A stretch of DNA of 64,000 nt, taken from the NCBI RefSeq assembly GCF_010550675.1, contig NZ_JAAGOA010000014.1, positions 1 through 64,000 of the forward strand, in the 5' to 3' direction. The stretch comes from Phytoactinopolyspora halotolerans (lineage in GTDB: Bacteria > Actinomycetota > Actinomycetes > Jiangellales > Jiangellaceae). A model generated the notes under the pieces. The model was not told where the DNA came from. It saw only the letters and a list, made by a program, of their open reading frames with translations, and made no database searches. Below are positions 37,913 to 58,003 of this stretch, piece by piece. A program made the position numbers and the translations under genes. The first letter of the stretch is position 1. Each line of letters starts with the position of its first letter.

Positions 37913-38168
37913 CGCGGCGAGCCTGCTCGTTGTCTGGGTTCGGTCGAGTCGAAACTGGTCTCCCGTTTCGAAGCTCAATCTCTGGAGCCCGCTCCGAGCC
38001 CGCGGGAGGACGGCCGGGTGGAGATGGGGATCCACCGTGCCGACGCACTGCCGGCTTCAGAGCATGGATGCTAAGTCGACGAAAGGCGCCTCTTGCCTCG
38101 ATGGTTTGGAGAGATTAGCGCATACCGAGGCTTGTTAGCCGCTGTTAGCCTCTTATGAATGTCAATTG

Positions 38169-38174
38169 TATCGT
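38169..38174 (+). promoter_or_regulatory. -10 box of the decayed Rpn gene
   Basis: TATCGT ends 6 nt before ATG 38181. The 268-nt gap upstream (37913-38180) also holds two TTAGCC copies (near 38135 and 38146) and is AT-richer toward the gene; nothing else was recognised there. Confidence 0.4.
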
Positions 38175-38180
38175 ACTGGC

Positions 38181-39013: not shown

Positions 39014-41015
39014 CTACCAAGGTTCTGCCGTGGGGCGGATCCTGATCTGGTCGACGTGCGCCTCGCCGGACGCGCTCGGGTCTTGGTTGGCGATGTAGAT
39101 CCGGACGTCGTCGCCCGTGTTGCTTGGTGCGGTGAACGTCACCGAGTGTGATGTCCAGCCGGTACTGCTGAACGGCTCGCTGGCGAGCACCTGCCCGGTG
39201 TCCAGGTTCTCCACATAGACCACGCCGGCTGCCGAACCGCCGTCCGTCTTACCGACGAACTCCACGGTGTACGACGTCGACGGGCTCCAGTCCTCCCACG
39301 GCTGGGATACCGATTGTGCGGTACCGCCAGTGGAGACGATGGTCAACCCGTAGTCGCCGGCGTAGGCGTTGGTGCTGTCGCGGTACGCCGTCGTCGAGGA
39401 CGAGCCCACCCGGTACCACTGCGCCGCGTAGGTCGGGTCGAAGCTGGTCTCCAGCTCGAAACCCTGGTTGAGCAGCTTGGCGACGTCCCACGTCATGATG
39501 CGGGCCAGCGCCAGCATGTCGTAGCCGCTCTGCGCCGACGAGTTCCGGTACTGCTCAGCCACCACCCAGTACAGGCTCCGCTTCCACTGTGCGTACTGGG
39601 TCCACTCGACCAGATACTTGCTGAAGCTCGTGTCCCCGGATCCGTCGACGTACTTGGTCACCGCGGGCGACGTGGTCGAGCCGTTCCACATCCGGGTGGC
39701 GATCGTGTTGGTGAAGCGCTGCATGTCGGTGGCGTTGAAGACCACGCCGCGCTGATACATCTCCCGTGCCGCGCCCACGTCGAGATTCGCGTGCGACGTG
39801 TCCTCCGGCGTGCTCGTGTAGTACGCGTAATTCCAGATGTAGTCGTCGCCGCTGAGGGTCAGCGCGTTCTTGAAGTATTGCCCGTTTCGCTGCGCCCGGT
39901 CGAGGTACGTCGCGTCGCCGTTCACGCCGTGCAGCACCAGCAGCATTCGGGCGAACGCCAGCGACTGGTTGTACGGCAGATACGTCCAGCTCGCACTGTG
40001 CGAGAAGGCGTCGAACTGTGTGGACTGCTTGTAGGTGCCGGTACCGGACGACAGCGACGCCCACGTGTTCCCGATGTACGAGCTGGACTCCCACCGTGGG
40101 ACGAGTTCGTTCTCCAGAAAGTTCAGGTAAGCATCCGCCTTGGTGGCATACGCGGCCTGTAGCGACGGCGTCTGCTCCACCAGCTCGATGAAATGCGCGA
40201 TCGAGGTGCCGACCATCCCGTCGTGCACGATGTACGGGAACTTGCCGCTGATCTTCACGTCGTCGAAATACGCGCGCCCGCCCGAGACGGTGTAGTCCAT
40301 ATGGCCGAGCCACACCTCGAGGTCGTGCCCGGTGGCCGTGGGCGTCCGGCATTCGGTGCTGTAGTACTGCCAGGACGTGTCGTCCACCGTGATCGAGCAC
40401 AGGATCTCGCCGGTCGTCCGGTCGTGCAGTTACGCGCGGCCTTGGGCGGCCGAGCCGTTGGTCTTCGCGTTGACCCGTAGCACGTAGACCGTGTCCGGCT
40501 CATAGGTGTTCATGTCCTGGTAGAGCTTGCGCCAGGCCTGACCGTCGGAGTCGATCCGCACCGCGTAGCCGCCGGTGCTGGCGTCGGTGGTGCGGAACGC
40601 GTTGGAGCCGGTGGTCTGGAAACGCGACCAATATCGCGGCAGCGTGGAGTCGCCGGGGTCGCCCGTCTCCATGCCGCCGTTGTCCACCTCGACCGGCGAG
40701 TATCGAGCCGTGCTCCAGCCCAGGTAGCCGTCGCCGTCGGCATCGTCCGCGTCGGCGATCATCCGGTCGACGTGGGTGACGAGCTTGTCCAGCCATGCGG
40801 TGTCCCGGCTGACCCGATAGACGTCGACGTAGCTGTCCAGCACGTAACTCTCGCTCCAGGCGAAGGTCGCGCTGTCGGCGGCGGTGTAGAAGTCGTCGCC
40901 GACGGCGGCCTCCATCGCGACGTACCTGTCGTACCAGGGGTTGCCCGGCGCCCCGGGGGGCCCCCACGGCCGTGAACGTCATGCCGACTCTTCCGTGTTT
41001 CAGGTGCGCCGACAT
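39014..41015 (-). pseudogene. Toroid-like carbohydrate-locus protein with C-terminal CBM-like domain, two lesions
   Basis: ATG 41015 has AGGAG upstream. The frame shifts at the run C4G6C5 (40951-40965), after which it continues as GNPWYDRYVAMEAAVGDDFY. A TAA at 40430-40432 then interrupts in frame (AAQGRA, stop, LHDRTTGEI). The rest reads through to 39014. The protein has an all-helical toroid-like core with an inserted beta domain, related to the product of 41024-42556 (shared EDTSHANLDVG/EDGSHGAISV and FNATDMQRF/FDETDMRRF). A C-terminal beta-sandwich (residues about 540-660) resembles a carbohydrate-binding module. No export signal is visible. With two lesions the gene is probably inactive. 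Confidence 0.72.
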
Positions 41016-41023
41016 GCCCGCTC

Positions 41024-42556
41024 CTACTGTCCGTTGTGCGCGGCGAGGAAGGCGGTGCTGAGCAGATATGACCCGAAAATCGGCTCAGGTTGTTCGCGGT
41101 TGAAGATCTCCCGGGCATGGTCGAAGATCCGCTCGTCCCAGCGGGCGAGGTTCACCCAACGGGGCGCTTGGAGGTCTTGCAGGCCGAGGTTGGCGGTCCC
41201 GTCGACGCGGTACCAGACGTGCGCCTGGCCATCGTCGCCGTAAGCCAGCATGTTGTCCGCGTACGTGGCGGCGAACCGGCGCATGTCGGTCTCGTCGAAC
41301 ACCATCCCCAGTCGGTAACCGGCGAGGGCCGCCTCGACGCTGATCGCGCCGTGTGATCCGTCCTCGATCTGACGAGCGCCGTTGTACGCGGGCGTCCACT
41401 CCGACACGTCGTCGTCCTGGGAGTAGCCGTTGTAGACGTGGCCCTTGGTCCACCAGTAGTTCCAGATGTAGCTGTTCCGCAGTGTCCGCAGGTCGTTACG
41501 GAAGGTGGTCAGCATCCGGACGGCGCGATCCCGGTACGGTCCGTCGTCGACCAGCGCGCCGAGGTGCGCCTGGGCGGTGGCCAGCGCCACGAACTGGTTG
41601 TGTGGCATCTCGCACCCGTCGAACGCCAGCGGCGTTCCCTTCTCCCAGATGTACCAGCCCTCGCCCTGGTCGTTCTGCCGCCACTCGTGGTCGTGGCAGG
41701 CGACGGCGTCACGGACCGCGCGCAGGTACGTGGCGGCCTTGGCGCCGTAGCGCGGCATCAAGGATGGGGTCTTGCGCACGATGCGGCAGAACTCGGCGAT
41801 CGGCGCTGTGATCATCCCGGTGTGCACCGAGAAGGTCACGTAGTGCGAGGACATGGTGTAGGTGCCGGCTTGCGGGAGGGCCGGTGAGTTGTCCCCCCGC
41901 AGATCCACCGCGGTGGCGCGGGTCACGGTCGGGCTCGCGTCGCGGATCCGCGTCACCGCGAAGTCCGGGCTGGTGGCGTCCATGGTGAGATTCGCGAACG
42001 TGTCGCTGCGGTTGATCCGGGTGTCCGTGATGGTCACCGCGAATCGGTCCGCCGACTCGTGTGCCACGTCGGCGGTGACGCCGTCGGCGTACGCCTGCGC
42101 CGTGCGCAGCCGCAGCGACGGCGCGCCGTTCGGGCCCGGGACGTCGACCTCGCCCCCGGTGTACGGGTATCCGCCTCTCCAGACCGGCAGCGACTCTCCA
42201 CGCCAGTCGGTCACCCCGCGTTCGCTATCCCTGATGGAGAGGATGGCGTCGATGTTGCGGCACAGCAGGTCGAGGTACCGCGTGTCGCCGAACGCCTCAT
42301 ACATGGTGATGTACGAGCGCAGTATGTAGGACTGGCCCCAGGCCAGGGATCCACGGTTCTCGTTCGGGACGTCGGGCTGGGCGTCGCCGTGCTCGGTGAA
42401 GTACGCCTCCGCCCAGTCGTACGTCGCCCGGAGCGCGTAGTCCCGTGTTTCCGCCCGGGCGGGTGCGGTGGTCAGAAGTCCGGTCGCGGTGCCGATGCCG
42501 AGTACGGCTCCGGCCTGCAGCAGTCGACGACGGCCGAACGAGCGGTGGCTGGACAT
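41024..42556 (-). CDS. Tat-exported alpha/alpha-toroid-like protein of a sugar-utilisation locus
   Basis: A 510-aa protein with a twin-arginine signal (GRRRLLQAGAVLGIG, cleaved near PARA). The mature protein alternates helical segments (GSLAWGQSYILRSYITMYE; YIWNYWWTKGHVY; GSHGAISVEAALAGYRLGMV) around a beta-rich insert (residues about 160-250), as in toroid-type polysaccharide lyases and glucuronyl epimerases. No named family was recognised. ATG 42556 has AGGAGG upstream. It follows two permease genes on the same strand, so it likely cleaves or trims the polymer outside the cell before import. Confidence 0.7.
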   Translation of the reverse strand: MSSHRSFGRRRLLQAGAVLGIGTATGLLTTAPARAETRDYALRATYDWAEAYFTEHGDAQPDVPNENRGSLAWGQSYILRSYITMYEAFGDTRYLDLLCRNIDAILSIRDSERGVTDWRGESLPVWRGGYPYTGGEVDVPGPNGAPSLRLRTAQAYADGVTADVAHESADRFAVTITDTRINRSDTFANLTMDATSPDFAVTRIRDASPTVTRATAVDLRGDNSPALPQAGTYTMSSHYVTFSVHTGMITAPIAEFCRIVRKTPSLMPRYGAKAATYLRAVRDAVACHDHEWRQNDQGEGWYIWEKGTPLAFDGCEMPHNQFVALATAQAHLGALVDDGPYRDRAVRMLTTFRNDLRTLRNSYIWNYWWTKGHVYNGYSQDDDVSEWTPAYNGARQIEDGSHGAISVEAALAGYRLGMVFDETDMRRFAATYADNMLAYGDDGQAHVWYRVDGTANLGLQDLQAPRWVNLARWDERIFDHAREIFNREQPEPIFGSYLLSTAFLAAHNGQ

Positions 42557-42637
42557 GCGGTTCCTCCTGTTGATCGAGCGGGACGTGACGTGCGTACGCG
42601 GATCGGGACACGGAACAGGTGGGAGCGCGGCGGGATC

Positions 42638-43477
42638 TCAGCCCTTGACCGCGCCCTTCATGCCTTCGAGGATGTGGCGCTGCATGACGAGGAAGAAGAC
42701 GAGGACCGGGATCAGCGAGATCACCGTGCCGGCCGCCAACGAGCGCACGTCGGTGCCGGTCACTCCGGTGAGGTAGGCGATACCGAGCGCGATCGGGTAC
42801 TTGCTGGTGTCCTTGAGCACCACCAGCGGCCAGATGAAGCTGTTCCACACCGAGATGAACCCGAAGATGGCGAGGACGGCGAACGCCGGCTTCGCCGCCG
42901 GCAGCATGACGTGCCAGAAGACGCCCCACTCCTTACATCCGTCGATGCGGGCGGCGTCGTCGAGTTCCTGCGGCACCCCGGCGAAGGTCTGCCGGAGCAG
43001 GAAGATGCCGATCGCGGAGAGGATGCCCGGCAGCATCACACCTGCGTAGCTGTCCGCGAGCCCCAGCTCGGAGACCACCAGGAACCGCGGGATCAACATC
43101 AGCTCGCCCGGCAGGAACATGGTGGAGAGGAAGAGGAAGAACACGACTGTGCGTAGCCGGAACCGCATCCGGGCCAGCGGATACGCGGTCAGCGCGGAGA
43201 CCGCCAGGTAGGCCGGCACCATCACGCCCACGTAGATCACCGAGTTGAGCAGGTACCGGGGAAAGTCGATCACGGTCCATGCGCGGATGAACCAGTCCAC
43301 CACCGGCGGACGCGGAATGAAGTCCGGCGGGAAGGAGAAGACGTCCTGGGTGGCGGGTTTCAGCGATGACGACACCAGCACGACGAACGGTCCGATGAAG
43401 ATGATCGCCAGGATGATCAGCAGGACGTAGTTGCCGGCGAGGGTCGACGTCCGGCGTCGGCGGGTGCGGGCCGTCAT
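42638..43477 (-). CDS. Carbohydrate ABC transporter permease (MalG type)
   Basis: A 279-aa permease with six spans, EAA loop ELDDAARIDGCKEWGVFWHV and a C-terminal ILEGMKGAVKG. ATG 43477 overlaps the stop of the MalF-type gene (ATGA). It lies upstream of the toroid-like genes and pairs with the binding protein encoded divergently at 44760. Confidence 0.94.
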   Translation of the reverse strand: MTARTRRRRTSTLAGNYVLLIILAIIFIGPFVVLVSSSLKPATQDVFSFPPDFIPRPPVVDWFIRAWTVIDFPRYLLNSVIYVGVMVPAYLAVSALTAYPLARMRFRLRTVVFFLFLSTMFLPGELMLIPRFLVVSELGLADSYAGVMLPGILSAIGIFLLRQTFAGVPQELDDAARIDGCKEWGVFWHVMLPAAKPAFAVLAIFGFISVWNSFIWPLVVLKDTSKYPIALGIAYLTGVTGTDVRSLAAGTVISLIPVLVFFLVMQRHILEGMKGAVKG

Positions 43478-44460
43478 CGGCGCTCCTTCGTGAGCTGGTA
43501 ATTGATCACAGCCAGGACGATCATGATGGCCCAGAGCACGAGGGCTATCGCGCTGGCGTAACCGAACTCGTAATCCTCGAACGCCTTGGACCACACGTAG
43601 TAGCCCAGGGTCATGGTGCTGTCCTGCGGGCCGCCGCGCGTCATCACGTAGACGGAGGTGAACACCTGCATCGCATCGAGCATCGCCATGGTGGACGTCA
43701 CGGCGACGTACGGCACCATCAACGGTACGGTGATCTTGGTGAGCCGGTGCCAGACGCCGGCGCCGTCGATCTCGGCCGCCTCGTAGAGGTCAGAAGGGAT
43801 GGCCTGCAGGCCGGCAAGGTAGATCATCATGTAGATCCCCATGCTCTTCCAGCCCTCGATGACGATCAGGCAGGGCAGCGCCCAGTCGGTGCTGAGCAGC
43901 CAGGCGGTGGGTTCGTCGGCGATGCCGAGGCTGGTGACGATCCAGCTGAGCACGCCCTCGGCGTCGAGCACGTATTTCCAGGTCACGGCGACGGCGACCA
44001 TCGAGACGACGACCGGCATCACGATGGCGAGCCGGAACCCCTGGATGCCGGGGATCCGCTGATTGACCAGCACGGCCAGCAGCAGCGGCACGGCCACCGC
44101 GAGCGGGATCATGCCGAGCAGGAACAGGAACGAGTTGACCAGCGCCTCGTGGAACCGTGGATCGTCGAGCATCCGCTCGAAATTCGCCGTGCCGACCGCG
44201 ATCGGCGCCGAGATCCCGTCGTATCGATAGAACGCCAGCTGTAGCGCCTGCACGGCCGGCCAGACGAAGAAGACCGCGAAGAGCGCGAGGCCCGGCAGCA
44301 TGAACAGCCACGGGGACCAGAATGCGGGGCGATTCGCGCGGGCTCGCCAGGCCGGGCCGCGCGGTACCGAATCCGGCGCGCCCCGTCGAGGCGGATGCGG
44401 CGTCGTCCGTTCGGCCACGGGCGTCAGCTCGGGCACATCGCTTCCGGACTGCTGTGGCAT
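43474..44460 (-). CDS. Carbohydrate ABC transporter permease (MalF type)
   Basis: A 328-aa permease with a Pro/Arg-rich N-terminal tail of about 45 residues, six spans and the EAA loop DLYEAAEIDGAGVWHRLTKI. ATG 44460 has GGAGGTGAG upstream. A minus-strand TATGCG (44497-44502) may be its -10 box. It is the first gene of a minus-strand operon that includes the second permease and the toroid-like genes. Confidence 0.93.
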   Translation of the reverse strand: MPQQSGSDVPELTPVAERTTPHPPRRGAPDSVPRGPAWRARANRPAFWSPWLFMLPGLALFAVFFVWPAVQALQLAFYRYDGISAPIAVGTANFERMLDDPRFHEALVNSFLFLLGMIPLAVAVPLLLAVLVNQRIPGIQGFRLAIVMPVVVSMVAVAVTWKYVLDAEGVLSWIVTSLGIADEPTAWLLSTDWALPCLIVIEGWKSMGIYMMIYLAGLQAIPSDLYEAAEIDGAGVWHRLTKITVPLMVPYVAVTSTMAMLDAMQVFTSVYVMTRGGPQDSTMTLGYYVWSKAFEDYEFGYASAIALVLWAIMIVLAVINYQLTKERR

Positions 44461-44759
44461 CTCACCTCCGGGCGATCATCGGGAGTCAGATTGGGTCGCA
44501 TAAAAATGGAACAGTTCGTGTCCTAAACGTGGCAGTGACTATAAGCCCAGTTATCTGGCGACGTCTACCCCCGAATTGTTGAGAAATGTGTCGCCGCTGT
44601 GACATGGATATTTTCGGAACAGCGCAGGAGTGGCGGGCATGTTGTGGGCATGTGGAAGGCCGCCTATTGACTTGGGTGGAGTTGTGTCCGAAACTGGTCG
44701 CCAACATTCAGCGGCGCCGAGTCCATGGCTTCGACACCTTCTTCCACTCAGGAGAGACC
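44461..44759. promoter_or_regulatory. Divergent promoter region of the sugar-utilisation locus
   Basis: This 299-nt gap is AT-richer than its flanks. It holds GTGTCCTAAAC (44518-44528) and GTGTCCGAAAC (44684-44694); the first matches one arm of the palindrome before the AraC-type gene at 54163. Candidate -10 boxes are TATGCG (44497-44502, minus strand, for the permeases) and TATAAG (44540-44545, plus strand). GGAACAG also occurs twice (near 44507 and 44615). The long leader before ATG 44760 has no good ORF. Confidence 0.55.
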
Positions 44760-46088
44760 ATGCGATCCGATCCCACCATCCACCGTCCAACGCGGCGCTG
44801 GCCGATGCTCACCGCGGCAGCGGTCGGGCTGGCCATGATCACGTCGGGCTGCATCAGCGGCGCCGACGCCGAGGAGGAGTCGGACGAGCAAGCTGAGCCC
44901 GAGTCCACCGAACTCGGCGGTGAAGTCGAGTGGTGGACCATCAACCTGCAGGCCAATTACTCCGACTACATCCAAGGGCTGATCGACACCTACGAGGCGG
45001 ACAACCCCGGCACCACGATCAAGTGGGTCGACGTGCCGGGTGCCGACCTGGCCACCAAACTGCTCGCCGCGCTCGCCGCCGGAGAGGCGCCGGACCTGGT
45101 CAACATCGGATCCCCGGATCTGGGCCGGTTCCAGAACTCATTGACCGACCTCAACGACTACTTCTCGGCGGAGGAACTCGCCGAGTACCAGGAGTCGCTG
45201 GTCGAGCCGCTGACATTCGACGGCGCCGTGACCGCCCTGCCCTGGTACAACGGCGGCTCGCCGGTGGCGATGTACCGGCAGGAGGCGATGGAGGGCACCA
45301 GCTTCGATCCGGAGAACCCGCCGGTCACCTACGACGAGATCTTCGACGTCGCCGCCGAGGTCACGGACGCGCACGGGATCGCCGGGTTCAGCGCGATACC
45401 CGGACATCTCGTGTTGCCGTACTACGGCGTGCAGATGTTGAACGAGGACAAGACCGAGGCGACCTTCAACACCCCCGAGGCGGTGGCGGTCCTGGAGAAG
45501 TGGAAGGAGGCCTACGACGCGGGTGTGCTCGCGCCGGGCTCCGTCTCCAAGGATGAGCGGAACCTCCCGGAGAACCTGGAGAACCGCAAGGTCGGGTTCA
45601 GCATCAACGTGCCCGCCGCCCGGCTGGTCAACACGGAGGAGAACGCGCCCGAGGTGTACGAGGACGTGGTGGTGACACCGGGCGTGCGTACCCCTGAGGG
45701 GAAGTTGCTGCTGCAGGGTCAGCAGACGTTCGGGATCCCGGCCGACTCGGACAACAAGGCCACGGCCGCGGACTGGTTGAAGTTCGTCACCAACGCGGAG
45801 AACCAGTTGGAGTTCTGCAAGATCGTGGCGATCTTCCCGTCGACCAAGGCGACGTTGGAGGACCCGTTCTTCGACAGCCAGGGCGAGGAGCCCACCGACG
45901 TCGCACGCAACATCATCGTCGAGACACTGCCGGATCTCGAAGACGGCGCCCTGGGCACGTCGAAGGACTTCCAACTCGGCGAGCTCCTGGCCGAGCAGGT
46001 GCGCGCCTTCTTGCAGGGCGATGTCGACGCGCAGACCGCCCTGGACAACGCAGCCGAGCAGTGGAACACGGAGCTTCAGCAGCAATGA
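44760..46088 (+). CDS. Carbohydrate ABC transporter substrate-binding lipoprotein
   Basis: A 442-aa CUT1 binding protein. ATG 44760 is preceded by AGGAGAG and gives a lipoprotein signal (lipobox AMITSGC, cysteine near residue 31). A strongly acidic linker (EEESDEQAEPEST) and the SBP_bac_1 fold follow (VEWWTINLQANYSDY; ALPWYNGGSPVAMYRQE; LLQGQQTFGIP). It supplies the divergently encoded permeases. Its stop overlaps the ATG of the dehydrogenase gene, so uptake and the first catabolic steps are co-transcribed. Confidence 0.93.
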   Translation: MRSDPTIHRPTRRWPMLTAAAVGLAMITSGCISGADAEEESDEQAEPESTELGGEVEWWTINLQANYSDYIQGLIDTYEADNPGTTIKWVDVPGADLATKLLAALAAGEAPDLVNIGSPDLGRFQNSLTDLNDYFSAEELAEYQESLVEPLTFDGAVTALPWYNGGSPVAMYRQEAMEGTSFDPENPPVTYDEIFDVAAEVTDAHGIAGFSAIPGHLVLPYYGVQMLNEDKTEATFNTPEAVAVLEKWKEAYDAGVLAPGSVSKDERNLPENLENRKVGFSINVPAARLVNTEENAPEVYEDVVVTPGVRTPEGKLLLQGQQTFGIPADSDNKATAADWLKFVTNAENQLEFCKIVAIFPSTKATLEDPFFDSQGEEPTDVARNIIVETLPDLEDGALGTSKDFQLGELLAEQVRAFLQGDVDAQTALDNAAEQWNTELQQQ

Positions 46089-47143
46089 CACGTACACAGA
46101 ACGACGGCGAGACCCTTCGTATCGGCGTGGTCGGCGCGGGGATCATGGGCACCAGCAACGCCCGGGCCGTCAACGCGCTCGCCGGAGCCGAGCTGACCGC
46201 GATCACCAGTGGGACCCGTGAAAGCGCCGAGAAGCTGGCCGGTGAGTTCGGTGGGCGGCCGCAGGTCTTCGACGATTACGAACAGTTGATCGATTCGGGT
46301 CCGGTGGACGCGGTCGTGGTGGCGACGCCCGACCATCTGCACGCCGACGTCGTGGTGAAGGCCGCCGCAGCCGGAAAACACATTCTGGTGGAGAAGCCGT
46401 TCACGACGTCGGTGCAGGACGCCGACCGATGCGTCCGCGCCGTCCGGGAGGCCGGCGTGATCGCGATGTGCATCTTCAACCACCGCTGGGTGCCCGCCTA
46501 CGCGCAAGCCAAGGACCTGATCGCCGGGCTGGGCAGCCCGGCGGTCGGGTACGCACGCAAAGACGACACCATCTACGTCCCGACCGAGATGCTCAACTGG
46601 GCGCAGAACACCACCTGCGCCTGGTTCCTCTCCAGTCATGACATCGACCTGGTCACCTGGTTCTTCGACGACGAGGTGGAGCAGGTGTACGCCACCGCTC
46701 GGTACGGCAAGCTGCGCTCGCTCGGCATCGACACGCCGGACGCCATCCAGATCCAGGCGCGGTACCGGCGCGGTGCCGTGGCGACGTTCGAGTCGGCGTG
46801 GATCTATCCGAACACCTTCCCCACCATGGTGGACAGCTACATCACCGCCATCTGCGACGACGGGGTCATCCAGCTGGACCGTCAGCAGGAGAACGTCGTG
46901 ATGGCCACGCCGGACGGCGTGAAGTTCCCGCGGAACATGCTCAAACGCACAGTGCACGGCGTGCTGGCGGGCGCCTACCCGGACGCGGTCGCGCACTTCG
47001 TCGACTGCGCCACGCGCGGCGTCGAACCGCTGATCACGGTGGAGAGCTCACGGCACGTGACGGCGGTGCTGGAGGCGGCGCACGCGTCCATCGCCTCCGG
47101 GCAACCGGTGGCGGTGCCGGAGCCGGGGCGGACCGTCGGATGA
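46085..47143 (+). CDS. Gfo/Idh/MocA family sugar dehydrogenase
   Basis: A 352-aa NAD(P)-dependent oxidoreductase: Rossmann motif GVVGAGIMGTSNA, catalytic-lysine motif VEKPFTTS, and a full-length C-terminal domain with HDIDLVTWFF, which places a conserved Asp/His in the active site. It probably oxidises a sugar or uronate released from the imported glycan. ATG 46085 overlaps the upstream TGA, and its own TGA overlaps the ATG of the lyase gene. Confidence 0.92.
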   Translation: MTRTQNDGETLRIGVVGAGIMGTSNARAVNALAGAELTAITSGTRESAEKLAGEFGGRPQVFDDYEQLIDSGPVDAVVVATPDHLHADVVVKAAAAGKHILVEKPFTTSVQDADRCVRAVREAGVIAMCIFNHRWVPAYAQAKDLIAGLGSPAVGYARKDDTIYVPTEMLNWAQNTTCAWFLSSHDIDLVTWFFDDEVEQVYATARYGKLRSLGIDTPDAIQIQARYRRGAVATFESAWIYPNTFPTMVDSYITAICDDGVIQLDRQQENVVMATPDGVKFPRNMLKRTVHGVLAGAYPDAVAHFVDCATRGVEPLITVESSRHVTAVLEAAHASIASGQPVAVPEPGRTVG

Positions 47144-49842: not shown

Positions 49843-50623
49843 ACACCAGCGCGGCATGTCCGAGCAACTGCGGCTGCTGGACGTCGCCGCATCGCTCGGC
49901 CGGCACCCGGCACACGAGGTCGGCAGCGGCAGTCCGGCCGCGATGATCTCCACGCTGGATCGGTACGGCATCGCGGAAGCCGTCGTCGCACACACCGTGG
50001 CCACGCACCACGAGCCGGCGGCGGGCAACGCCCGCGTGCTGGCGGAGGTGGCGGACGAACCGCGGCTGCGACCGTGCTGGACGGTGCTTCCGCCGACCTG
50101 TGGTGAGCTGCCCGGCGCGGCGGAGCTGGTGACGCAGGCGCGGGCCGGGGGCGTCGGGCTGTTCACGGTGCGGCCCGGGTCGCACGGTTTCGACCTGGCC
50201 GGACCGGACACGGCGCCGCTGCTGGAGGCCGCCGCCGAACACGGCATGCCGATCCTGGTGGACGCACCCGAGACGGACTGGGCCGCGGTGGAAGACGCGG
50301 CGGCGGCACACCCAGAGCTGTGGCTGATCGTCTCCGAGGTGGGGTACCGGGAGCTGCGCCGGCTGTGCGGGCTGCTGGAACGCCGGCCGCGCATCCTGCT
50401 GTGCACGGCCAACCTCTCCGGCCACCTGGCGCTGGAGTTCCTGGTGCACCGGTTCGGCTCGCACCGGCTGGTGTTCGGCACCGGCCAGCCGGTGCGCGAC
50501 CCGGGTGAGGCGGTACTCCGCCTGCTCTGGTCCGAGCTGGACGACGCCGACGTGCGCGCGATCGGTGGAGACACCATGCGCGGCCTGCTGGCGACGTCCC
50601 GAACCACCGTGGAGGTAGCATGA
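49835..50623 (+). CDS. Amidohydrolase-like protein lacking metal ligands
   Basis: A 262-aa TIM-barrel protein related to the next gene. At the N-terminus the metal motif HxH is absent (LLDVAASLGRHPAHEV), and at the C-terminal strand FGTGQPV replaces the GSDFP motif of active relatives. Strand-end regions such as LLCTANLSGHLALEF retain the fold. It is probably a catalytically inactive partner or regulatory subunit. ATG 49835 overlaps the lyase gene by 8 nt; Met8 at 49856 is an alternative start. Confidence 0.72.
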   Translation: MTEHQRGMSEQLRLLDVAASLGRHPAHEVGSGSPAAMISTLDRYGIAEAVVAHTVATHHEPAAGNARVLAEVADEPRLRPCWTVLPPTCGELPGAAELVTQARAGGVGLFTVRPGSHGFDLAGPDTAPLLEAAAEHGMPILVDAPETDWAAVEDAAAAHPELWLIVSEVGYRELRRLCGLLERRPRILLCTANLSGHLALEFLVHRFGSHRLVFGTGQPVRDPGEAVLRLLWSELDDADVRAIGGDTMRGLLATSRTTVEVA

Positions 50624-51471
50624 ACAGCCGCGCACCGGCCGGAGCCGTGCTCAGCCGGGAGCCCTGGCAGGGCACCCCGATCCTGGACGCGCATGCGCAC
50701 CTGGGGCCGTACAACCGGTTCTTCATCGCCGACCCGAGCGGCGCGGCGATGCTCCGGGTGATGGACCGGTGCGGCGTCTCCGGCGCGATCCTGTCCAGCA
50801 TGCTCGGGGTCGAGCTGGACGCGGACGCCGGAAACGAGGAGACCGCGGCGCTCTGCCTGGCACACCCGTCCCGGTTCGCCGGGTACGTGGTCGTCAACCC
50901 GTGGCAGGACCCGGCGGGGCAGCTGGAGCGGTGGCGCGACCACCCGGCCTTCGTCGGCGTCAAGCTCCACCCCGACCTGCACGAATATCCGCTGGACGGG
51001 CGTCGCTACCGGCCGGTGTGGGAATACGCGGAGGTCACCGGGCGTCCGGTGCTGACGCACACGTGGGCGGGCTCGCAGTTCGACGATCTGGACCACCTCG
51101 ACCGGGTCGCGACCGACCATCCGCGGGCGCGGATCCTGGCCGGGCACGCCGGGGTGGCGCCGAGTTCGTTCGGGCGGGCGATCGACGTGGCCCGGCGGCA
51201 CCCGCGGGTGGTGCTGGAACTGTGCGGGTCGCACAACCACGGCCGCGCGATCGCCGAGATGGTCGGCGCCGTCGGGCCCGGTCAGGTGGCGTTCGGCTCC
51301 GACTTCCCGTTCATCGATCTGCGGATGTCGCTGGGGCGGATGCTCTTCGCCGAGCTGGCCGACGAGGAGCGGGCCGCCGTGCTCGGAGGCACCATGGCGA
51401 GTGTGCTGTCGGCCGGACACGCAGGGGGTACCGCCCTGCTCGACCGTTTCCGGCGGGGTCCGGCACACTGA
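50620..51471 (+). CDS. Amidohydrolase family protein
   Basis: A 283-aa metal-dependent TIM-barrel hydrolase (Amidohydro_2 type). Ligands are visible in order: DAHAHLG (HxH), VGVKLHPDLHE (Lys and His), LTHTWAG (His), LAGHAG (His) and AFGSDFPF (Asp). Such enzymes hydrolyse lactones, amides or decarboxylate ring acids; a sugar lactonase would fit after the dehydrogenase. ATG 50620 overlaps the previous TGA (ATGA), so it is made together with the inactive-looking paralogue. Confidence 0.88.
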   Translation: MNSRAPAGAVLSREPWQGTPILDAHAHLGPYNRFFIADPSGAAMLRVMDRCGVSGAILSSMLGVELDADAGNEETAALCLAHPSRFAGYVVVNPWQDPAGQLERWRDHPAFVGVKLHPDLHEYPLDGRRYRPVWEYAEVTGRPVLTHTWAGSQFDDLDHLDRVATDHPRARILAGHAGVAPSSFGRAIDVARRHPRVVLELCGSHNHGRAIAEMVGAVGPGQVAFGSDFPFIDLRMSLGRMLFAELADEERAAVLGGTMASVLSAGHAGGTALLDRFRRGPAH

Positions 51472-51476
51472 CACCT

Positions 51477-52853
51477 GTGAACGACGACGCCTCCCAGCCG
51501 GCCGGGCCGTCCGCGCGCGCCGCCTCGCCCCGCGAGCATCTGTCTCAGGTTCGGGCGCCGGTGGCGGTCGGCGTCGTCGGCCCGCCGGATGTGGTGCAGA
51601 GCATCCTGAGCCTGGACGCGGCGGTGGGCGGCAACGTCCGGCTCATCGGCGCCGCGCACCACGTCGACTCGGAGCTGCTGACGCGGGCGCAGGCGGTGAG
51701 CGAAGACGCGGACATCATCCTGTTCACCGGGCCGTTGCAGTATGACCTGGCCGCGGACAAGCTGCCCATCCCGTCCACGTTCGTGCCGATCAGCGGGACG
51801 TCGCTGTTCTCGGCGCTGATCCGGGCGGCGGAGAACCCGGCGATCGAGATGGACCGGATCAGCATCGATTCGATCTCGCGCTCCGAGGTCGAGGAGGCCT
51901 ACGCCGACATCGGCCGGAGCACCAGCGGGCTGCACGTCGCCCCGTATGACGGTCCGGAGTCGGTGGACGGCTTCAGCCGGTTCCACACCGAGCTGTACCG
52001 GGCGGGGGAGACGACGGCCGCGTTCACCACGGTGAAGTCGGTGGCGAACCGGCTGCAGGCGGACGGGATTCCGGCCGTGCGGATGGCGCCCACCACGGCC
52101 AATCTGCGCAGCGCGGTGATGACCAGCGCGCTGCTCGGTACCGGGTCGCTGCTGGAGGAGGCACAGCTGGTCCTGATGACCGTGCACGTCACGTCGCCGG
52201 AGGGCTCCGGTCACTGGGGATGGAGCAACTACCGGCTGCAGGGCGCCCGGCTCACCGTGCACCAGCTCTTGCTGGAGGAGGTCGAGGCCGCGGGCGCGGC
52301 GCTGCTGGCGTATGAAGGCATGACGTTCGGCATCACCGCCACCGCGGGCGCGTTGCGTCAGCTCACCGATAACCTGCACACCGCGCCCTTCGTGGACCGG
52401 CTGCAGGCGGCACTAGGCCTGCAGGCGTTCGTCGGCATCGGCAGCGGCCGCACCGTGCAGGAGGCGGATGCCCACGCGCAACAGGCGCTCGGACTGGCGC
52501 AGAGCCACGCCGGGCACCCCGCACAGGTGGTGGGGGCGGACGGCACCGTGGTCGGGCTGCCGCCGCGGTCGCGGCGGCGGGAACGTGTGGTGGCTGATGA
52601 CAGATACGCGCACGAGCGGGAGATGCTGCGCCGGATCATCATGGCGCTGCCGGACACCGAGCCCGAGCCGCTGATCGTGGACGCCGCACGCGTGGCCGAG
52701 GCACTGTCGGTGACCCTGCGCAGCGCTCGGCGCATCCTGAACAGTCTGGTGGCGGCCGGCCTGGCGTGGACCATGCCGCCGGCGCCGTCACCCGGCGGCG
52801 GCCGGCCGCGGCAGCGTTTCCGGCTGCTGATCCAGCGCCTGGAACCGCGCTGA
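51477..52853 (+). CDS. Putative transcriptional regulator with C-terminal winged helix
   Basis: A 458-aa protein from GTG 51477, 5 nt after the amidohydrolase. Residues about 25-170 form an alpha/beta sensor-like domain (VAVGVVGPPDVVQSILSL; ADIILFTGPLQYDL). Residues 300-370 hold a GGDEF-like segment (AFVGIGSGRTVQEADAHAQQ) as found in CdaR/PucR-type regulators. The C-terminus has a winged helix (ARVAEALSVTLRSARRILNS, GGGRPRQRF). It likely senses a pathway intermediate. No exact family was recognised. Confidence 0.65.
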   Translation: MNDDASQPAGPSARAASPREHLSQVRAPVAVGVVGPPDVVQSILSLDAAVGGNVRLIGAAHHVDSELLTRAQAVSEDADIILFTGPLQYDLAADKLPIPSTFVPISGTSLFSALIRAAENPAIEMDRISIDSISRSEVEEAYADIGRSTSGLHVAPYDGPESVDGFSRFHTELYRAGETTAAFTTVKSVANRLQADGIPAVRMAPTTANLRSAVMTSALLGTGSLLEEAQLVLMTVHVTSPEGSGHWGWSNYRLQGARLTVHQLLLEEVEAAGAALLAYEGMTFGITATAGALRQLTDNLHTAPFVDRLQAALGLQAFVGIGSGRTVQEADAHAQQALGLAQSHAGHPAQVVGADGTVVGLPPRSRRRERVVADDRYAHEREMLRRIIMALPDTEPEPLIVDAARVAEALSVTLRSARRILNSLVAAGLAWTMPPAPSPGGGRPRQRFRLLIQRLEPR

Positions 52854-52930
52854 CGCTGGCACGGGTGGCGCCTCTTCCTGTGTCTTTCCATCACGTCCTG
52901 GCCCACCACCACGTCGGTTGACCTCGACCG

Positions 52931-54163
52931 TCACGGCTGCGAGTGGGCGGACCGGCGGGTCTCGGACGGGGTGGCGCCGGTCTCCCGGACCAACACCCGG
53001 CGCAGCTGCACCGGTGTGCCGAAGCCGCTGGCCCGGGCGACCTGCGCCATGCCCAGCCGGGTCTCTTCCAGCAGCCGCTGGGCCCGGCGGACTCGCCGTT
53101 GGGTGACGTAGTCGCGGAAGGTGGTGCCCAGCTCGGAGCGGAACAGGTGCGAGACGTGGAACGGGCTGACGCCGACCGTGGCCGCCACACGTTTCAGCCG
53201 CAGGTCGGGGTCGGTGAAGTGTTCGTCCACGTGCCGGCGGATCAACTCCAGGGTTGGCGACCGGGTCAAGCCGCGCCGGTGCCGGAGCGCAAGGGCGTCG
53301 ACCACGCGCTCCACCCAGGCCACCACGGCGCCCGGCTCGTGCAGGTCGGCCAGCTCGGTCAGGGCCGCGTAGGGCACCGCCTCGCAGACGGCCATCCAAT
53401 CCGCCGCGGTGCCAACGCCGAGCCGCCCGTCCAGCGTGGCCGTGGTCGCCAGCACCTGACCGAGGAGCCAGCGGCGCACGAGCTCGTCGTCGCCGGAGGC
53501 CTGGGCGGTCGCGGCGGCGAACCAGTCGCAGAGCAGACGCCGGGCCCGGTCGGACTCACCTCTGCCGATGGCACGGGCCACCTCCCGGTGGGCATCGTGC
53601 GGCGCACGCGCATCAGGTGGACTCTGGCCGCTCCGGCTGGGGTGGCCGGCGGTGACATCGCCAGGGGAAGGCGCCGACGCCGGTATGACCCGGTCCGGTC
53701 CGAGGGCGAGCTTGGCCCGGTGCGCCTGGCGTGCCGAAGACGTCGCCACGGCGACGGCGTCCGCATCGGCGCCGGTGACGGCGACCGGAGCGCCGATGGC
53801 GACCGTGACCGTGACGTCGGCGGTGTGACGCGCCGCTCGGTGGATGCCGGCGGCGACCTCCCGAGCGCGGCGCTCCAGGTCGTCGGCGGCGGGGGAGGAG
53901 AGGGTCAACAGCCACTCATCCGGCGGAAGGTGTTCGACCCGGGCGTCGCCCAGGCCGCGCGCGTGTCCGGCGATCATGCGGTCGAGCGAACGGCGGGTGC
54001 GCTCCGCCCAGCCGTCCGGCGCGTCCGCCGCGCGCGACAGGAAGGCGTCGACGTCCACCAGCAGGCAGCACACGGCCGGCGGCGTCCGCGGCGGCCCGAC
54101 GTCGGCGGAGGCGTCGAGGTTCGTGTCCCGTCGCACGTCCGGTCGATACGCGCCTGCCAGCAT
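52931..54163 (-). CDS. AraC family transcriptional regulator
   Basis: A 410-aa regulator. Residues 20-150 form a degenerate GGDEF/cyclase-like domain (CCLLVDVDAFLSRAADAP; EHLPPDEWLLTLSS), followed by a helical linker. The C-terminal 100 residues are two AraC helix-turn-helix motifs (LRLKRVAATVGVSPFHVSHL; GMAQVARASGFGTPVQLRRV). ATG 54163 is selected because TATGCT ends 6 nt upstream (leaderless); GTG 54169 is possible. An 18-bp palindrome sits just upstream of the promoter, and one arm recurs at the transporter promoter. Confidence 0.88.
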   Translation of the reverse strand: MLAGAYRPDVRRDTNLDASADVGPPRTPPAVCCLLVDVDAFLSRAADAPDGWAERTRRSLDRMIAGHARGLGDARVEHLPPDEWLLTLSSPAADDLERRAREVAAGIHRAARHTADVTVTVAIGAPVAVTGADADAVAVATSSARQAHRAKLALGPDRVIPASAPSPGDVTAGHPSRSGQSPPDARAPHDAHREVARAIGRGESDRARRLLCDWFAAATAQASGDDELVRRWLLGQVLATTATLDGRLGVGTAADWMAVCEAVPYAALTELADLHEPGAVVAWVERVVDALALRHRRGLTRSPTLELIRRHVDEHFTDPDLRLKRVAATVGVSPFHVSHLFRSELGTTFRDYVTQRRVRRAQRLLEETRLGMAQVARASGFGTPVQLRRVLVRETGATPSETRRSAHSQP

Positions 54164-54169
54164 GACCAC

Positions 54170-54175
54170 AGCATA
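54170..54175 (-). promoter_or_regulatory. -10 box of the AraC-type gene
   Basis: TATGCT on the minus strand, 6 nt before ATG 54163; no ribosome site is present. Confidence 0.5.
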
Positions 54176-54190
54176 GCGGATGAGTGGCCC

Positions 54191-54251
54191 GTTTGGGACG
54201 TCCTAAACATGCCAACCGACGGTGCATAAATAGGGTGACATCGCTGATGTC
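54191..54251. promoter_or_regulatory. Palindromic operators upstream of the AraC-type gene
   Basis: GTTTGGGACGTCCTAAAC (54191-54208) is an 18-bp palindrome with a single mismatched pair, 15 bp upstream of the -10 box and so at the -35 region. A second inverted repeat, GACATC/GATGTC with 3-nt spacer, lies at 54237-54251. The arm GTCCTAAAC also occurs at 44520-44528. Confidence 0.6.
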
Positions 54252-54260
54252 CGATTGCCG

Positions 54261-55127: not shown

Positions 55128-55275
55128 GCGAGGTCCCTTCTCCAGATTCGGGGTGTACTCAGCGCAGCACGGCCCGGCGGGACCGGCAAGGACCCGCCGA
55201 TGCGATCGGTGCACGGTTGTTGCGGACTTGGTTGACGTGGGCCGACGCCGCGGCCCTATGTTCGTCAGGACGGCA

Positions 55276-55351
55276 CCGGATGTCCGCATCCGGCGACCCG
55301 GCCGAAAGCCGGGTACACAGCGGCGGCGAGTCCGTCCCGACAGTTCCGCCG
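55276..55351 (+). ncRNA. Candidate structured leader RNA (three successive hairpins)
   Basis: Between the FAH gene and the aminotransferase start, three stems follow one another. They are CCGGATG/CATCCGG with loop UCCG (55276-55293), ACCCGGC/GCCGGGT with loop CGAAA (55296-55314), and CGGCGG/CCGCCG (55321-55351). The last ends shortly before the ribosome site (GGAGG) and GTG 55372. The compact arrangement suggests a cis-acting leader such as a riboswitch or translation attenuator. No known riboswitch class was recognised. Confidence 0.4.
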
Positions 55352-55371
55352 GACGAGGTTGGAGGCCAGGA

Positions 55372-56676
55372 GTGGCTCGGAAGCTGGAACACAGCGAGGC
55401 GCTGTACGCGCGTGCTCGTCAGGTCATCGCCGGCGGCGTGTCCAGCGACGCGCGCCGTCTTCCCGGCACACCTCTCTACGTCGACCGGGCTCAGGGCAGC
55501 CGGCTGTGGGACGCGGACGGCAACGCCTACATCGACTACGTTCTGGGGCAGGGACCGGCGATCCTGGGACACAGCCCGGATGTGCTGGCCGATGCGGTCG
55601 CGGCACAGATGCGTCGTGGGGTGACCTATTCCGCGCAGCACCTGACGGAGATCGAGGTGGCGGAGCGGATCCGGTCCATGGTCCCGTGCGCGGAGCTGAT
55701 CCGGTTCAACTCGGTGGGCTCGGAGGCCGCACATGCCGCGCTCCGGCTGGCGCGCGGGCACACCGGCCGGGACAAGGTCATCAAGTTCGAGGGCCACTAC
55801 CACGGCTGGTTCGACCCGGTGTTGTTCAGCGTGCACCCGCCGCTGGACGCGGCCGGTCCCGCCGACCGGCCGGTCGCGGTGCCCGGCTCCGGCGGCCAGC
55901 TGCCCGGCCAGGCGGCCGATCTGGTGCTGACCCGCTGGAACGACCTGGACGCGTTGACCGACACCGTCGCCCGCCATCGCGGCGAGATCGCCGCCGTCGT
56001 CATGGAGCCTGTCCTGTGCAACTCCGGGGCGATCACCCCCGACGACGCCTACCTCAGCGCGGTCCGGCGGATCTGCGACGACGAGGGCATCCTGCTCATC
56101 TTCGACGAGGTGATCACCGGCTTCCGGGTGGCGCCGGGCGGTGCCCAGGAGCGGCTCGGGATCACCCCGGACATCGGCGTCTTCGGCAAGGCCATGGCCG
56201 GCGGGATGCAGGTCTCGGCGCTGGCCGGCAAGGCGGCGGTGATGGAGACGATCGCCTCGGGCAAGGTCTCGCACGCGGGGACCTTCAACTCGCATCCGGT
56301 CGCGATGGCCGGTGCACGCGCCGTCCTGGAGGTGCTCGACGAGAAGCGGGACGACATCTATCCGGAGATGGAGCGGCGGGGCCGGCGGCTGATGGACGGG
56401 TTCGCCGCGATCGCCTCGCGTCTAGGAGTGCCGATGCTGGTCCAGGGGACCGGGCACCTGTTCCAGACGTATCTGACCGGACGGCCAGACGTCAGGGATT
56501 ATCGTGAGTTCGCGGCCACGGACCGGGCCACCATGGCGCGGCTGCACGGCCTGCTGCTCGAGGAGGGGATCAACATGGTCCCGCGCGGCCTCTGGTTCCT
56601 GTCCGCCGCACACACCGACGACGACATCGACGCGACCCTGGCGGCCTTCGAGAACGCGCTCGCCAAGCTCTCATGA
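55372..56676 (+). CDS. Class III aminotransferase (glutamate-1-semialdehyde aminomutase-like)
   Basis: A 434-aa PLP enzyme of the HemL-like group. Motifs in order: GVSSDARRLPGTPLYVDRA, the SVGSEAAHAALRLAR phosphate-site, HYHGW, DEVITGFRVAPGGAQ (Asp for PLP nitrogen), and the Schiff-base lysine in GVFGKAMAGGM (Lys near residue 272). True HemL uses glutamate semialdehyde, but its position next to a sugar aminotransferase suggests a keto-sugar or amino-sugar substrate. GTG 55372 has GGAGG about 8 nt upstream. Confidence 0.88.
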   Translation: MARKLEHSEALYARARQVIAGGVSSDARRLPGTPLYVDRAQGSRLWDADGNAYIDYVLGQGPAILGHSPDVLADAVAAQMRRGVTYSAQHLTEIEVAERIRSMVPCAELIRFNSVGSEAAHAALRLARGHTGRDKVIKFEGHYHGWFDPVLFSVHPPLDAAGPADRPVAVPGSGGQLPGQAADLVLTRWNDLDALTDTVARHRGEIAAVVMEPVLCNSGAITPDDAYLSAVRRICDDEGILLIFDEVITGFRVAPGGAQERLGITPDIGVFGKAMAGGMQVSALAGKAAVMETIASGKVSHAGTFNSHPVAMAGARAVLEVLDEKRDDIYPEMERRGRRLMDGFAAIASRLGVPMLVQGTGHLFQTYLTGRPDVRDYREFAATDRATMARLHGLLLEEGINMVPRGLWFLSAAHTDDDIDATLAAFENALAKLS

Positions 56677-56698
56677 TCACCAGCGGTCGACCGTCATC

Positions 56699-56738
56699 GC
56701 CGTGGATCACTGGTGTGTCCACCCCGGCGATCCACGGC
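56699..56738 (+). terminator. Hairpin between two aminotransferase genes
   Basis: GCCGTGGATC and GATCCACGGC are perfect 10-bp arms around a 20-nt loop that holds an inner GGTG/CACC stem. The structure is 22 nt after the first gene and 36 nt before the ATG of the second. It may terminate, attenuate or protect the transcript and so set the ratio of the two enzymes. Confidence 0.5.
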
Positions 56739-56773
56739 AATAGTGGCCGATCACTGATCCGGAGGAGACACCC

Positions 56774-58003
56774 ATGGACGTGACCACCGATACGCTCGCG
56801 CTGCACGGCGGAACACCCGCGCTCGGCCCCGGCGACACCATCCCCGGCTGGCCGGAGCACGACGACGCGGAGGAGCAGGCCGTGCTGGGCGTGCTGCGGT
56901 CTGGGCGCTGGGGCAGCACGCACGGCGACGTCGTGGCCACGTTCGAGCGCGAGTTCGCCGACTACCAACAGGCGGCGCACGGGATCTGCCTGGTCAACGG
57001 GACCATGGCGATCGTGGTGGCGTTGCGCGCGTGCGGCGTGGGCATCGGCGACGAGGTCATCGTGCCGCCGTACACGTTCATCGCCACCGCGTCCGCGGCC
57101 CTCTTCATCGGGGCGGTGCCGGTGTTCGCCGACGTCCAGCCCGCCACCCACCTGCTGGATCCGGCCGCGGTGGAGGCGGCGATCACGCCGCGGACCAAGG
57201 CGATCGTGGCGGTGCATCTGGCCGGCCGTCCGGCGGACATGGACGCGCTCGCTGCGGTGGCCGCCAGGCATAGTGTCGCCGTGGTGGAGGATGCGGCGCA
57301 GGCGCACGGTGCGGAGTACCGTGGACGCCGCGTCGGCGCGATCGGCGACGTCGGCACGTTCAGTTTCCAGAGCAGTAAGAACATGACCGCCGGCGAGGGC
57401 GGCGCGGTTCTCACCGACGACGAGCGGGCGGCGAACGCGCTGTATTCGCTGGTGAACGTCGGCCGCGTGCGCGGCGGCGGCTGGTACGAGCACACGTCCG
57501 TCGGTTACAACCTGCGTCTGACCGAGTTCCAGGCGGCGATCCTCCGCGCCCAGCTGGCCCGGCACCCGGCTCAGCAACAGGTGCGCGAGCGCAACGCGAC
57601 CCTGCTCACGCAGCTGCTCGGTGACGTGGACGGCATCGAGCTGGCGCAGCCGGACCCGGCGGTCACGGCGCACGGCCGGCACCTGTTCGTCTTCCGGGTG
57701 CCCGCACTGGGGGCCGCCGGCACGCGCGACGCGGCGGTGCGCGCGCTGGCCGCGGAAGGGCTTCCGGGGGCGTCGTCGGGATACGTTCCGCTGCACCGCA
57801 ACGAGGCGTTGATGCGCGAGACCCGAGCGGTTGTGGACCGGCTCGGTCAGCCATACCCGGAGCCGGACTGTCCGGTGGCCGATCAGGTGTCCACGGACAC
57901 GATCTGGCTGCCACAGCCGTATCTGCTCGGCGACGACGAGTTCACCCACCGCGTCGCGGGCGCCATCGCCAAGGTCGTCCGCGCGGCAGCAGCGCTGAAG
58001 TGA
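56774..58003 (+). CDS. DegT/DnrJ/EryC1/StrS family aminotransferase
   Basis: A 409-aa PLP-dependent sugar aminotransferase. Visible are VNGTMAIVVALRACGVG (PLP phosphate pocket), DEVIVPPYTFIATASA, VVEDAAQAHGAEY (Asp) and the catalytic lysine in FSFQSSKNMTAGEGGAV (Lys near residue 201). Relatives aminate keto-sugars such as scyllo-inosose or nucleotide-linked hexuloses. ATG 56774 follows CCGGAGGAG. Its presence beside catabolic genes may indicate reversible deamination of an amino sugar or inosamine. Confidence 0.92.
   Translation: MDVTTDTLALHGGTPALGPGDTIPGWPEHDDAEEQAVLGVLRSGRWGSTHGDVVATFEREFADYQQAAHGICLVNGTMAIVVALRACGVGIGDEVIVPPYTFIATASAALFIGAVPVFADVQPATHLLDPAAVEAAITPRTKAIVAVHLAGRPADMDALAAVAARHSVAVVEDAAQAHGAEYRGRRVGAIGDVGTFSFQSSKNMTAGEGGAVLTDDERAANALYSLVNVGRVRGGGWYEHTSVGYNLRLTEFQAAILRAQLARHPAQQQVRERNATLLTQLLGDVDGIELAQPDPAVTAHGRHLFVFRVPALGAAGTRDAAVRALAAEGLPGASSGYVPLHRNEALMRETRAVVDRLGQPYPEPDCPVADQVSTDTIWLPQPYLLGDDEFTHRVAGAIAKVVRAAAALK

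Follow-up and report, generated by a model that had tools for sequence, protein, structure and literature searches.

What is a rare heparinase-like lyase used for in Phytoactinopolyspora halotolerans, where it is encoded beside a sugar importer, a dehydrogenase, two amidohydrolase-fold proteins, a fumarylacetoacetate-hydrolase-family (FAH) enzyme and pyridoxal-phosphate (PLP) enzymes? The genes lie in a stretch of 64,000 nucleotides, hereafter the window (bases 1–64000 of contig C6 in a 7.3-Mb genome). There the initial annotation had described a 19-kb block and proposed import of an acidic oligosaccharide, β-elimination inside the cell, oxidation, lactone opening and retro-aldol or keto-acid cleavage, with an amino-sugar or inosamine step. 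Our analysis confirms the locus and partly supports that interpretation. As the best explanation of the whole we favour, tentatively and at somewhat less than even confidence, a co-regulated and probably mobile catabolic locus for an acidic oligosaccharide that probably contains amino sugar.

A conserved gene unit around a rare lyase

Every gene listed by the initial annotation was recovered at or close to its given coordinates (Table 1), and the locus is a genuine unit that runs from torA (41024) to hemL (56676), with a core of twelve genes: torA, permG, permF, sbp, gfo, hep, ahyD, ahyL, reg1, araC, fah and hemL. Stops and starts overlap from sbp through ahyL, so that the operon-like unit claimed earlier for 46085–51471 is borne out by the coordinates, and reg1 starts at about 51477, 5 bases past the preceding stop. 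Four loci, those of the window, P. alkaliphila (L011), P. endophytica (L013) and Amycolatopsis taiwanensis (L012), carry all twelve with order and strands unchanged. Some additional genes are inserted among reg1, araC and fah in L011 and L013; L012 has no inserted genes, and its flanking genes are unrelated.

The unit was examined by tblastn of the window genes against ten lyase-bearing loci in nine genomes, the window included. All ten loci contain permG, permF and sbp, nine contain gfo, nine ahyD, and five torA. Among the nine evaluable loci, which exclude G812 since its contig stops after ahyD, reg1 is present in nine, ahyL in eight, fah in eight, an araC match in seven and hemL in seven; importer, hep and reg1 occur together in all nine, as does HemL or StrS. 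The window's family, Jiangellaceae, and that of A. taiwanensis also contain looser versions of the locus: L031, L032 and L036 carry 11 of the 12 core genes, with torA missing and reg1 relocated past hemL, L035 carries nine, L034 five, and L047 the first seven, after which its contig stops. The co-occurrence search across actinobacteria that the initial annotation had suggested thus finds the gene set together across families, not scattered.

The 19-kb extent holds only between 41024 and 56676. At the left end, torB has no counterpart at the same place in L011–L013. At the right end, strS is partly conserved. It comes after hemL in the window and, at 79% identity, in P. endophytica (L038); searches of 12.8 kb in P. 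alkaliphila (L037) and of 3.5 kb in A. taiwanensis did not find it. We keep strS as a partner of the locus because two lyase loci have StrS in place of HemL, that of G565, with two StrS copies, and L034, a second A. taiwanensis cluster, and because StrS recurs beside TorA paralogues (see below). An APH-family kinase gene (58110–59024) comes after strS; the pair is kept in P. endophytica (75%, L038), and the kinase gene may travel with strS.

The lyase itself is rare. Counting the window's own genome in each case, hep is found in 5 of 22 genomes of the family and 3 of 5 of the genus, in at least 6 of 393 genomes of a class sample, at least 3 of 297 of an A. taiwanensis family sample, and at least 1 of 396 of a phylum sample, the last being the window's own alone (E 1e-25, single query sequence); the class, phylum and A. 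taiwanensis family counts are lower bounds, with 2–3 candidates scored per genome and overlapping samples. A plasmid search with hep gave no match. The identity of permG to the window gene is 85% in A. taiwanensis versus 56–58% in the same-family genomes G010 and G014, a pattern that suggests horizontal transfer, or an old duplication with losses; from this we regard the locus as probably horizontally mobile. In P. endophytica (L013, 8932–12758), the matches to gfo and to hep are each split in two, which reflects either a break or masking, since other parts of that record contain masked runs.

Hep is predicted to act inside the cell

Hep passes the curated cut-offs of Pfam Hepar_II_III_N (66.6 bits for a cut-off of 22) and Hepar_II_III_C (50.3 for 24), and a nine-member Hep profile compared with solved structures matches heparinase III (PL12) and the PL39 and PL15 alginate lyases over positions 98–523 of 717. 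The alignments point to a putative catalytic triplet, Asn239/Tyr293/His447, which is invariant in all nine Hep members and which Hep shares with heparinase III and the PL15/PL17/PL39 oligo-alginate lyases. Asn239 and Tyr293 align at chain positions 216 and 270 of 4mmh/4mmi, which an offset of 24 converts to Asn240 and Tyr294, both listed as catalytic residues of 4MMH in PMC12088678. In 6JP4, reached through 6jpn with an offset of 1, Tyr293 and His447 align with Tyr239 and His405 (residue table in PMC12088678); His447 is matched to 6jpn only, the 4mmi alignment being two residues off from His424. Asn239 stands between Gly and Trp (G-N-W), in contrast to the alginate lyases, in which, according to PMC12088678, a His beside the catalytic Asn is conserved and has been mutated in one enzyme.

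No signal peptide is visible by eye in Hep, which suggests that the enzyme would act after import. PL15 and PL17 lyases act after import, as predicted here for Hep. With its triplet intact, the cytoplasmic lyase of the initial annotation stands, and its assignment as a cytoplasmic β-eliminating lyase is well supported at the level of sequence. Unlike heparinase and oligo-alginate uptake loci, the unit shows no visible SusCD, sulfatase, UGL, KduI, KduD or KdgK, the absence of KduD and KdgK from the locus being judged by gene content only.

Enzymes that accompany the lyase

AhyL keeps the HxH motif, two further His and the Asp in all 11 aligned members, and AhyD has lost its metal ligands in all 10, with 42 columns invariant, so the dead protein is maintained. 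Judged by these residues, the two are a true live/dead amidohydrolase pair, as the initial annotation had read them. FAH scores 228.1 bits for PF01557 (cut-off 23.9) and 171 of 500 bits for the rhamnonate equivalog; its NYxxHAxE motif, whose His and Glu we take to form the catalytic lid of acylpyruvases, is present in the window protein and in 10 aligned orthologues, and the metal-ligand region is kept. Gfo retains the EKP lysine and the histidine of FLSSHDIDL, and has Phe four positions before this His in all ten rows. It scores 135.6 of 355 bits for the inositol dehydrogenase IolG equivalog TIGR04380, below the cut-off; unnamed dehydrogenases are its best matches, with inositol dehydrogenases and a sugar 3-ketoreductase also among them.

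The HemL-like protein aligns end to end with glutamate-1-semialdehyde aminomutase (GSAM). It keeps the PLP lysine, and its Arg28 corresponds to GSAM Arg32, presumably the carboxylate-binding residue. The segment holding GSAM Glu406 is deleted in the window and in all nine aligned rows, and the sequence after YHGW differs. The protein passes the wider PRK00062 model (403.3 of 398 bits) and falls below the TIGR00713 hemL equivalog (375.7 of 527.3). We set aside its identity as a true GSAM, given the missed equivalog cut-off and the missing Glu406. Fold family, PLP lysine and carboxylate Arg are shared with both GSAM and the PctV-like 3-aminobenzoate synthase; the protein scores 297.8 bits to 3fqa and 257.4 bits to 4zm3, which we take to be PctV.

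StrS scores 350.4 bits for PF01041 (cut-off 19.8) and carries the PLP-lysine motif SSKNMTAGEGG. Its best solved match is 3-amino-5-hydroxybenzoate (AHBA) synthase (290 bits), followed by 2-deoxy-scyllo-inosose aminotransferases; according to PMC8788734, the AHBA synthase RifK, with RifL, transaminates UDP-3-keto-glucose. The amino-sugar or inosamine step proposed earlier gains from the PLP enzyme found in every evaluable locus; inosamine is one reading only, since AHBA synthase ranks first. An N-acylglucosamine 2-epimerase (AGE; PF07221) follows sbp in G010 and G014, and a glycoside hydrolase family 20 (GH20)-like protein lies beyond permG in L034 (Pfam) and L035 (N-terminal sequence, by eye). 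Taken with the PLP enzymes, these suggest an amino sugar.

Part of the set also exists without the lyase. Gfo, AhyD, AhyL, FAH and HemL are found without hep in five genomes of one genus, probably Jiangella, of the window's family (L033, L078–L081), where a protein of about 720 residues takes the place of hep; AhyD matches of equal strength occur in two further genomes, G005 and G016. Clusters in several genomes (L085–L092) and in another family (L082) combine CUT1 permeases, AhyD/AhyL, two StrS-type enzymes and a Reg1 relative; they have no lyase match and mostly contain one further amidohydrolase. These hep-less clusters suggest that a PLP enzyme regularly belongs to the set acting after the lyase and that this set processes a shared product. 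DapA-like genes are present in hep-less relatives, in L033 by Pfam and in L083, L082 and L091 by eye.

A toroid protein and its paralogues

TorA has no Pfam or NCBIfam match. An earlier structural model from 5 sequences was weak (predicted local distance difference test, pLDDT, 61.6); rebuilt from 12 rows, the model reached a pLDDT of 84.7. Its best fold match is 3k11 (Z 24.0, 3.3 Å over 299, 10% identity), followed by GH105 (Z 23.3), GH76 (22.7), GH48 (21.7), an epimerase (21.2) and the unsaturated glucuronyl hydrolase 1vd5 (21.1), scores that do not separate GH105, GH88, GH76, GH48 and epimerases. Residues invariant in all 12 rows include His245, Glu398, Asp399, Ser401 and His402. TorA is a likely extracellular glycan-active enzyme.

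The two open pieces of torB are separated by a single in-frame stop, and its signal end is missing; it matches the torA profile piecewise, and its longest open piece has the invariant residues of TorA. Immediately outside the left end of the block, beside the broken torB, a YhgA-like transposase-family gene (38166–38986; PF04754, then DUF4351) is broken across two frames. At five of six other sites read (L099, L100, L101, L108 and L109; the exception is L102), a TorA paralogue has StrS or StrS2 no more than one gene away. L099 (G000:C26:34001-54000) and L108 are second Phytoactinopolyspora loci in which it stands next to StrS2; the former encodes an AGE-type epimerase and a heparinase-like protein of 1222 residues with a Tat-like N-terminus (by eye), the latter CUT1 permeases and a Reg1 relative. 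In L100, L101 and L109 a TorA paralogue, a 322-residue protein and StrS stand in a row; in L101 and L109 the 322-residue protein gives a weak tblastn match that is GH20-like, and in L100 it has no Pfam match. An apparent peptide-type ABC importer follows the row in L100 and L101 (by eye).

A candidate operator beside araC and half-sites at the divergent promoters

The window has exactly two copies of the 9-mer GTCCTAAAC, one between permF and sbp and one upstream of araC, and no shuffle out of 100 had two. The araC-side site is a perfect 18-bp palindrome that fits the pattern GTTTNGGACGTCCNAAAC with 0 mismatches. Allowing at most one mismatch, this pattern has one site per genome in all four whole genomes searched, each beside the araC of the locus; a reversed-pattern control gave 0 matches in the same four genomes, and about 0.0005 perfect sites per genome would be expected from composition. 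Each of the four genomes also has one half-site at the permease promoter, some 10 bases past its −10-like hexamer, and one after the conserved TATTGACT, ahead of sbp. In L011, L012 and L013 the counterpart of the half-site at 44520 reads GTCCYAAAC, and the half-site GTCCGAAAC with the TATTGACT stretch is identical. The perfect GTTTNGGACGTCCNAAAC site is absent from the looser relatives L031, L032, L034–L036 and L047. Palindrome and half-sites form a candidate operator set, with Reg1, AraC or another protein as candidate binder; one locus regulator could control the divergent transporter and catabolic promoters and araC through them.

The start of sbp is probably at 44760 rather than 44586, because a lipoprotein-like signal begins there (by eye) and because the conserved promoter-like stretch and its half-site fall between the two positions. 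Reg1 belongs to no Pfam or NCBIfam family above cut-off. The window has no tRNA gene at 30000–64000 and no Rfam match at 37000–60000.

Table 1 Genes and candidate regulatory sites of the locus (positions in the window)
Feature	Position	Strand	Description
torB	39014–40915	−	Broken second toroid gene; open pieces 39014–40387 and 40430–40915
torA	41024–42556	−	(α/α) toroid protein with β-rich insert, exported by twin-arginine translocation (Tat); RR motif
permG	42638–43477	−	CUT1-type ATP-binding cassette (ABC) permease
permF	43474–44460	−	CUT1-type ABC permease; PF00528
Half-site GTCCTAAAC	44520–44528	+	About 10 bases downstream of a −10-like hexamer, minus-strand permease promoter
Half-site GTCCGAAAC	44686–44694	+	Downstream of conserved TATTGACT, plus-strand operon promoter
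sbp	44760–46088	+	Sugar-binding lipoprotein of ABC importer; PF13416, PF01547
gfo	46085–47143	+	Gfo/Idh/MocA dehydrogenase
hep	47140–49842	+	Heparinase II/III-like lyase, predicted cytoplasmic; PF16889, PF07940
ahyD	49835–50623	+	Amidohydrolase-fold pseudoenzyme; PF04909
ahyL	50620–51471	+	Amidohydrolase with intact HxH/H/H/D metal site; PF04909
reg1	51477–52853	+	Regulator, weak C-terminal helix-turn-helix; likely GTG start
araC	52931–54169	−	AraC-type regulator; PF12833; degenerate GGDEF-like N-terminus (by eye)
Operator candidate GTTTGGGACGTCCTAAAC	54191–54208	+	Upstream of araC; pattern GTTTNGGACGTCCNAAAC
fah	54261–~55127	−	Fumarylacetoacetate-hydrolase-family enzyme; PF01557; start set from orthologues
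hemL	55372–56676	+	GSAM-like class III PLP enzyme
strS	56774–58003	+	DegT/DnrJ/EryC1/StrS aminotransferase; PF01041; partner outside the twelve-gene core

Discussion

An acidic substrate is likely. In the route that we favour, secreted TorA would trim a glycan outside the cell and the CUT1 importer would take up the fragment, a role that family-level evidence suggests. In the cytoplasm, Hep would cleave a uronyl bond by β-elimination, giving a 4,5-unsaturated uronate, equivalent to an open-chain 4-deoxy-5-keto acid. Gfo might oxidise its C3 hydroxyl to a 3,5-diketo acid, chemically an acylpyruvate, which FAH, to judge from its motif, may hydrolyse to pyruvate and a three-carbon acid. Since the opened product of a 4,5-unsaturated uronate oxidised at C3 would be a 2,4-dioxo acid, of the kind split to pyruvate by FAH acylpyruvases, this chemistry would join three conserved enzymes, Hep, Gfo and FAH, in one route. 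The PLP enzyme, HemL- or StrS-like according to the organism, would remove or move the amino group of the amino sugar or of the three-carbon product. AhyL with its dead partner could perform one hydrolysis or decarboxylation, most likely a lactone or ring opening, AhyD probably being its structural or allosteric subunit. The later catabolic steps are those that we infer, recurrence being the sole ground for where the PLP and amidohydrolase enzymes are placed.

The retro-aldol cleavage of the initial annotation is set aside, as no aldolase is visible in the core unit; acylpyruvate cleavage by FAH fits better because its NYxxHAxE motif is kept. No described pathway with this gene set was found in one open-access library, where names printed with slashes may escape word matching, in line with what the initial annotation had stated. 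The non-phosphorylating L-rhamnose/L-fucose pathway uses a dehydrogenase, an amidohydrolase lactonase and an FAH-type 2,4-diketo-3-deoxy acid hydrolase to reach pyruvate. The locus resembles it in having a dehydrogenase, an amidohydrolase-fold hydrolase and FAH; it differs in that the core lacks an acid-sugar dehydratase and the amidohydrolase has a conserved dead partner. In its most specific form, the proposed route would be independent of 2-keto-3-deoxygluconate (KDG), with C3 oxidation by Gfo, FAH products pyruvate and tartronate semialdehyde, interchangeable HemL and StrS, and AhyL requiring an obligate metal-free partner, a combination that we consider unlikely.

Several observations weigh against the favoured reading. 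Hep reaches 37.4 of 700 bits for the HepC equivalog NF045573, far under the cut-off. In L034, the second cluster of A. taiwanensis, hep is accompanied by strS and reg1, and no gfo, amidohydrolases or fah were detected, so that hep would not depend strictly on them, and two of the five genomes searched in the window's genus are without the lyase. Reg1 relatives occur also in clusters that lack it. The oxidation site of Gfo is a guess, because Phe stands where most family members would be expected to have Asp. No dehydratase, aldolase or kinase is seen in the core unit, which leaves the carbon route incomplete, and the HemL- and StrS-like enzymes may have unrelated roles.

Much of the same evidence would suit an ordinary uronate polymer, whether pectin-, glucuronan- or glycosaminoglycan-like, with the unsaturated uronate passing to isomerase, reductase and KDG enzymes encoded elsewhere and Gfo, FAH and the amidohydrolases serving a side sugar. 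Hep does have the standard lyase triplet, and the window genome encodes one true KduI (NF002091, 356 bits) on a different contig, besides one IolB. Its two PF04962 matches, the IolB at 284 bits and the KduI at 95, lie on contigs C15 and C1 and not on C6. Seven of the eight other lyase-bearing genomes, in contrast, have only IolB-like PF04962 matches of 210–299 bits, and G565 has none, which suggests that the usual isomerase KduI is not a general partner of the lyase; this comparison is weakened, to the cost of the route that we favour, in that PF04962 covers IolB too and the two are split in the other genomes by score only. The hep-less set of Gfo, AhyD, AhyL, FAH and HemL in L033 and L078–L081 also argues for a separate module, and we regard the polymer explanation as somewhat unlikely, though credible. 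The substrate might instead be a 3-keto or 3-amino sugar or an aminocyclitol glycoside, with StrS and Gfo interconverting 3-amino and 3-keto groups and Hep eliminating beside the 3-keto group. The ranking of StrS matches and the inositol dehydrogenases and sugar 3-ketoreductase among those of Gfo favour this, as do RifK with RifL and NtdA with NtdC, which make 3-amino from 3-keto glucose according to PMC8788734. Those systems likewise pair a StrS-type aminotransferase with an oxidoreductase at sugar C3, as the same paper describes them; they differ in being biosynthetic and not tied to an importer or lyase, and in seven of the nine evaluable lyase loci it is HemL that is present. StrS was not found adjoining five of those nine, in the stretches read. 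Hep moreover retains the uronate-lyase triplet. The HemL-like enzyme keeps the carboxylate-binding Arg of GSAM, and a 3-keto or 3-amino sugar or aminocyclitol glycoside as substrate seems quite unlikely.

Finally, the locus might serve no glycan at all, with an amino-acid-like or peptidoglycan-related compound as the import substrate and an amino acid degraded by the PLP enzyme, amidohydrolase and FAH. Two gene neighbourhoods point that way and also count against the glycan route: the AhyD/AhyL pair and FAH stand beside D-amino-acid- and N-acyl-amino-acid-type genes in L083 (G801; by eye), and a HemL paralogue (46% identity) stands beside M81 and D-aminoacylase-like genes in L103 (the latter by eye). 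The relatives concerned are remote (AhyD 30%, FAH 31%, HemL 46%), and CUT1 importer, heparinase-like lyase and toroid and AGE proteins indicate carbohydrate, which makes this explanation very unlikely.

If the favoured route is correct, the locus offers a further means of feeding on acidic or amino-sugar glycans that needs no KDG enzymes. It would tie together 'heparinase', 'amidohydrolase' and 'HemL' genes that annotation has left disconnected, and would provide a conserved live/dead amidohydrolase pair for study. The candidate operator, single in each of four genomes, would make induction easy to test.

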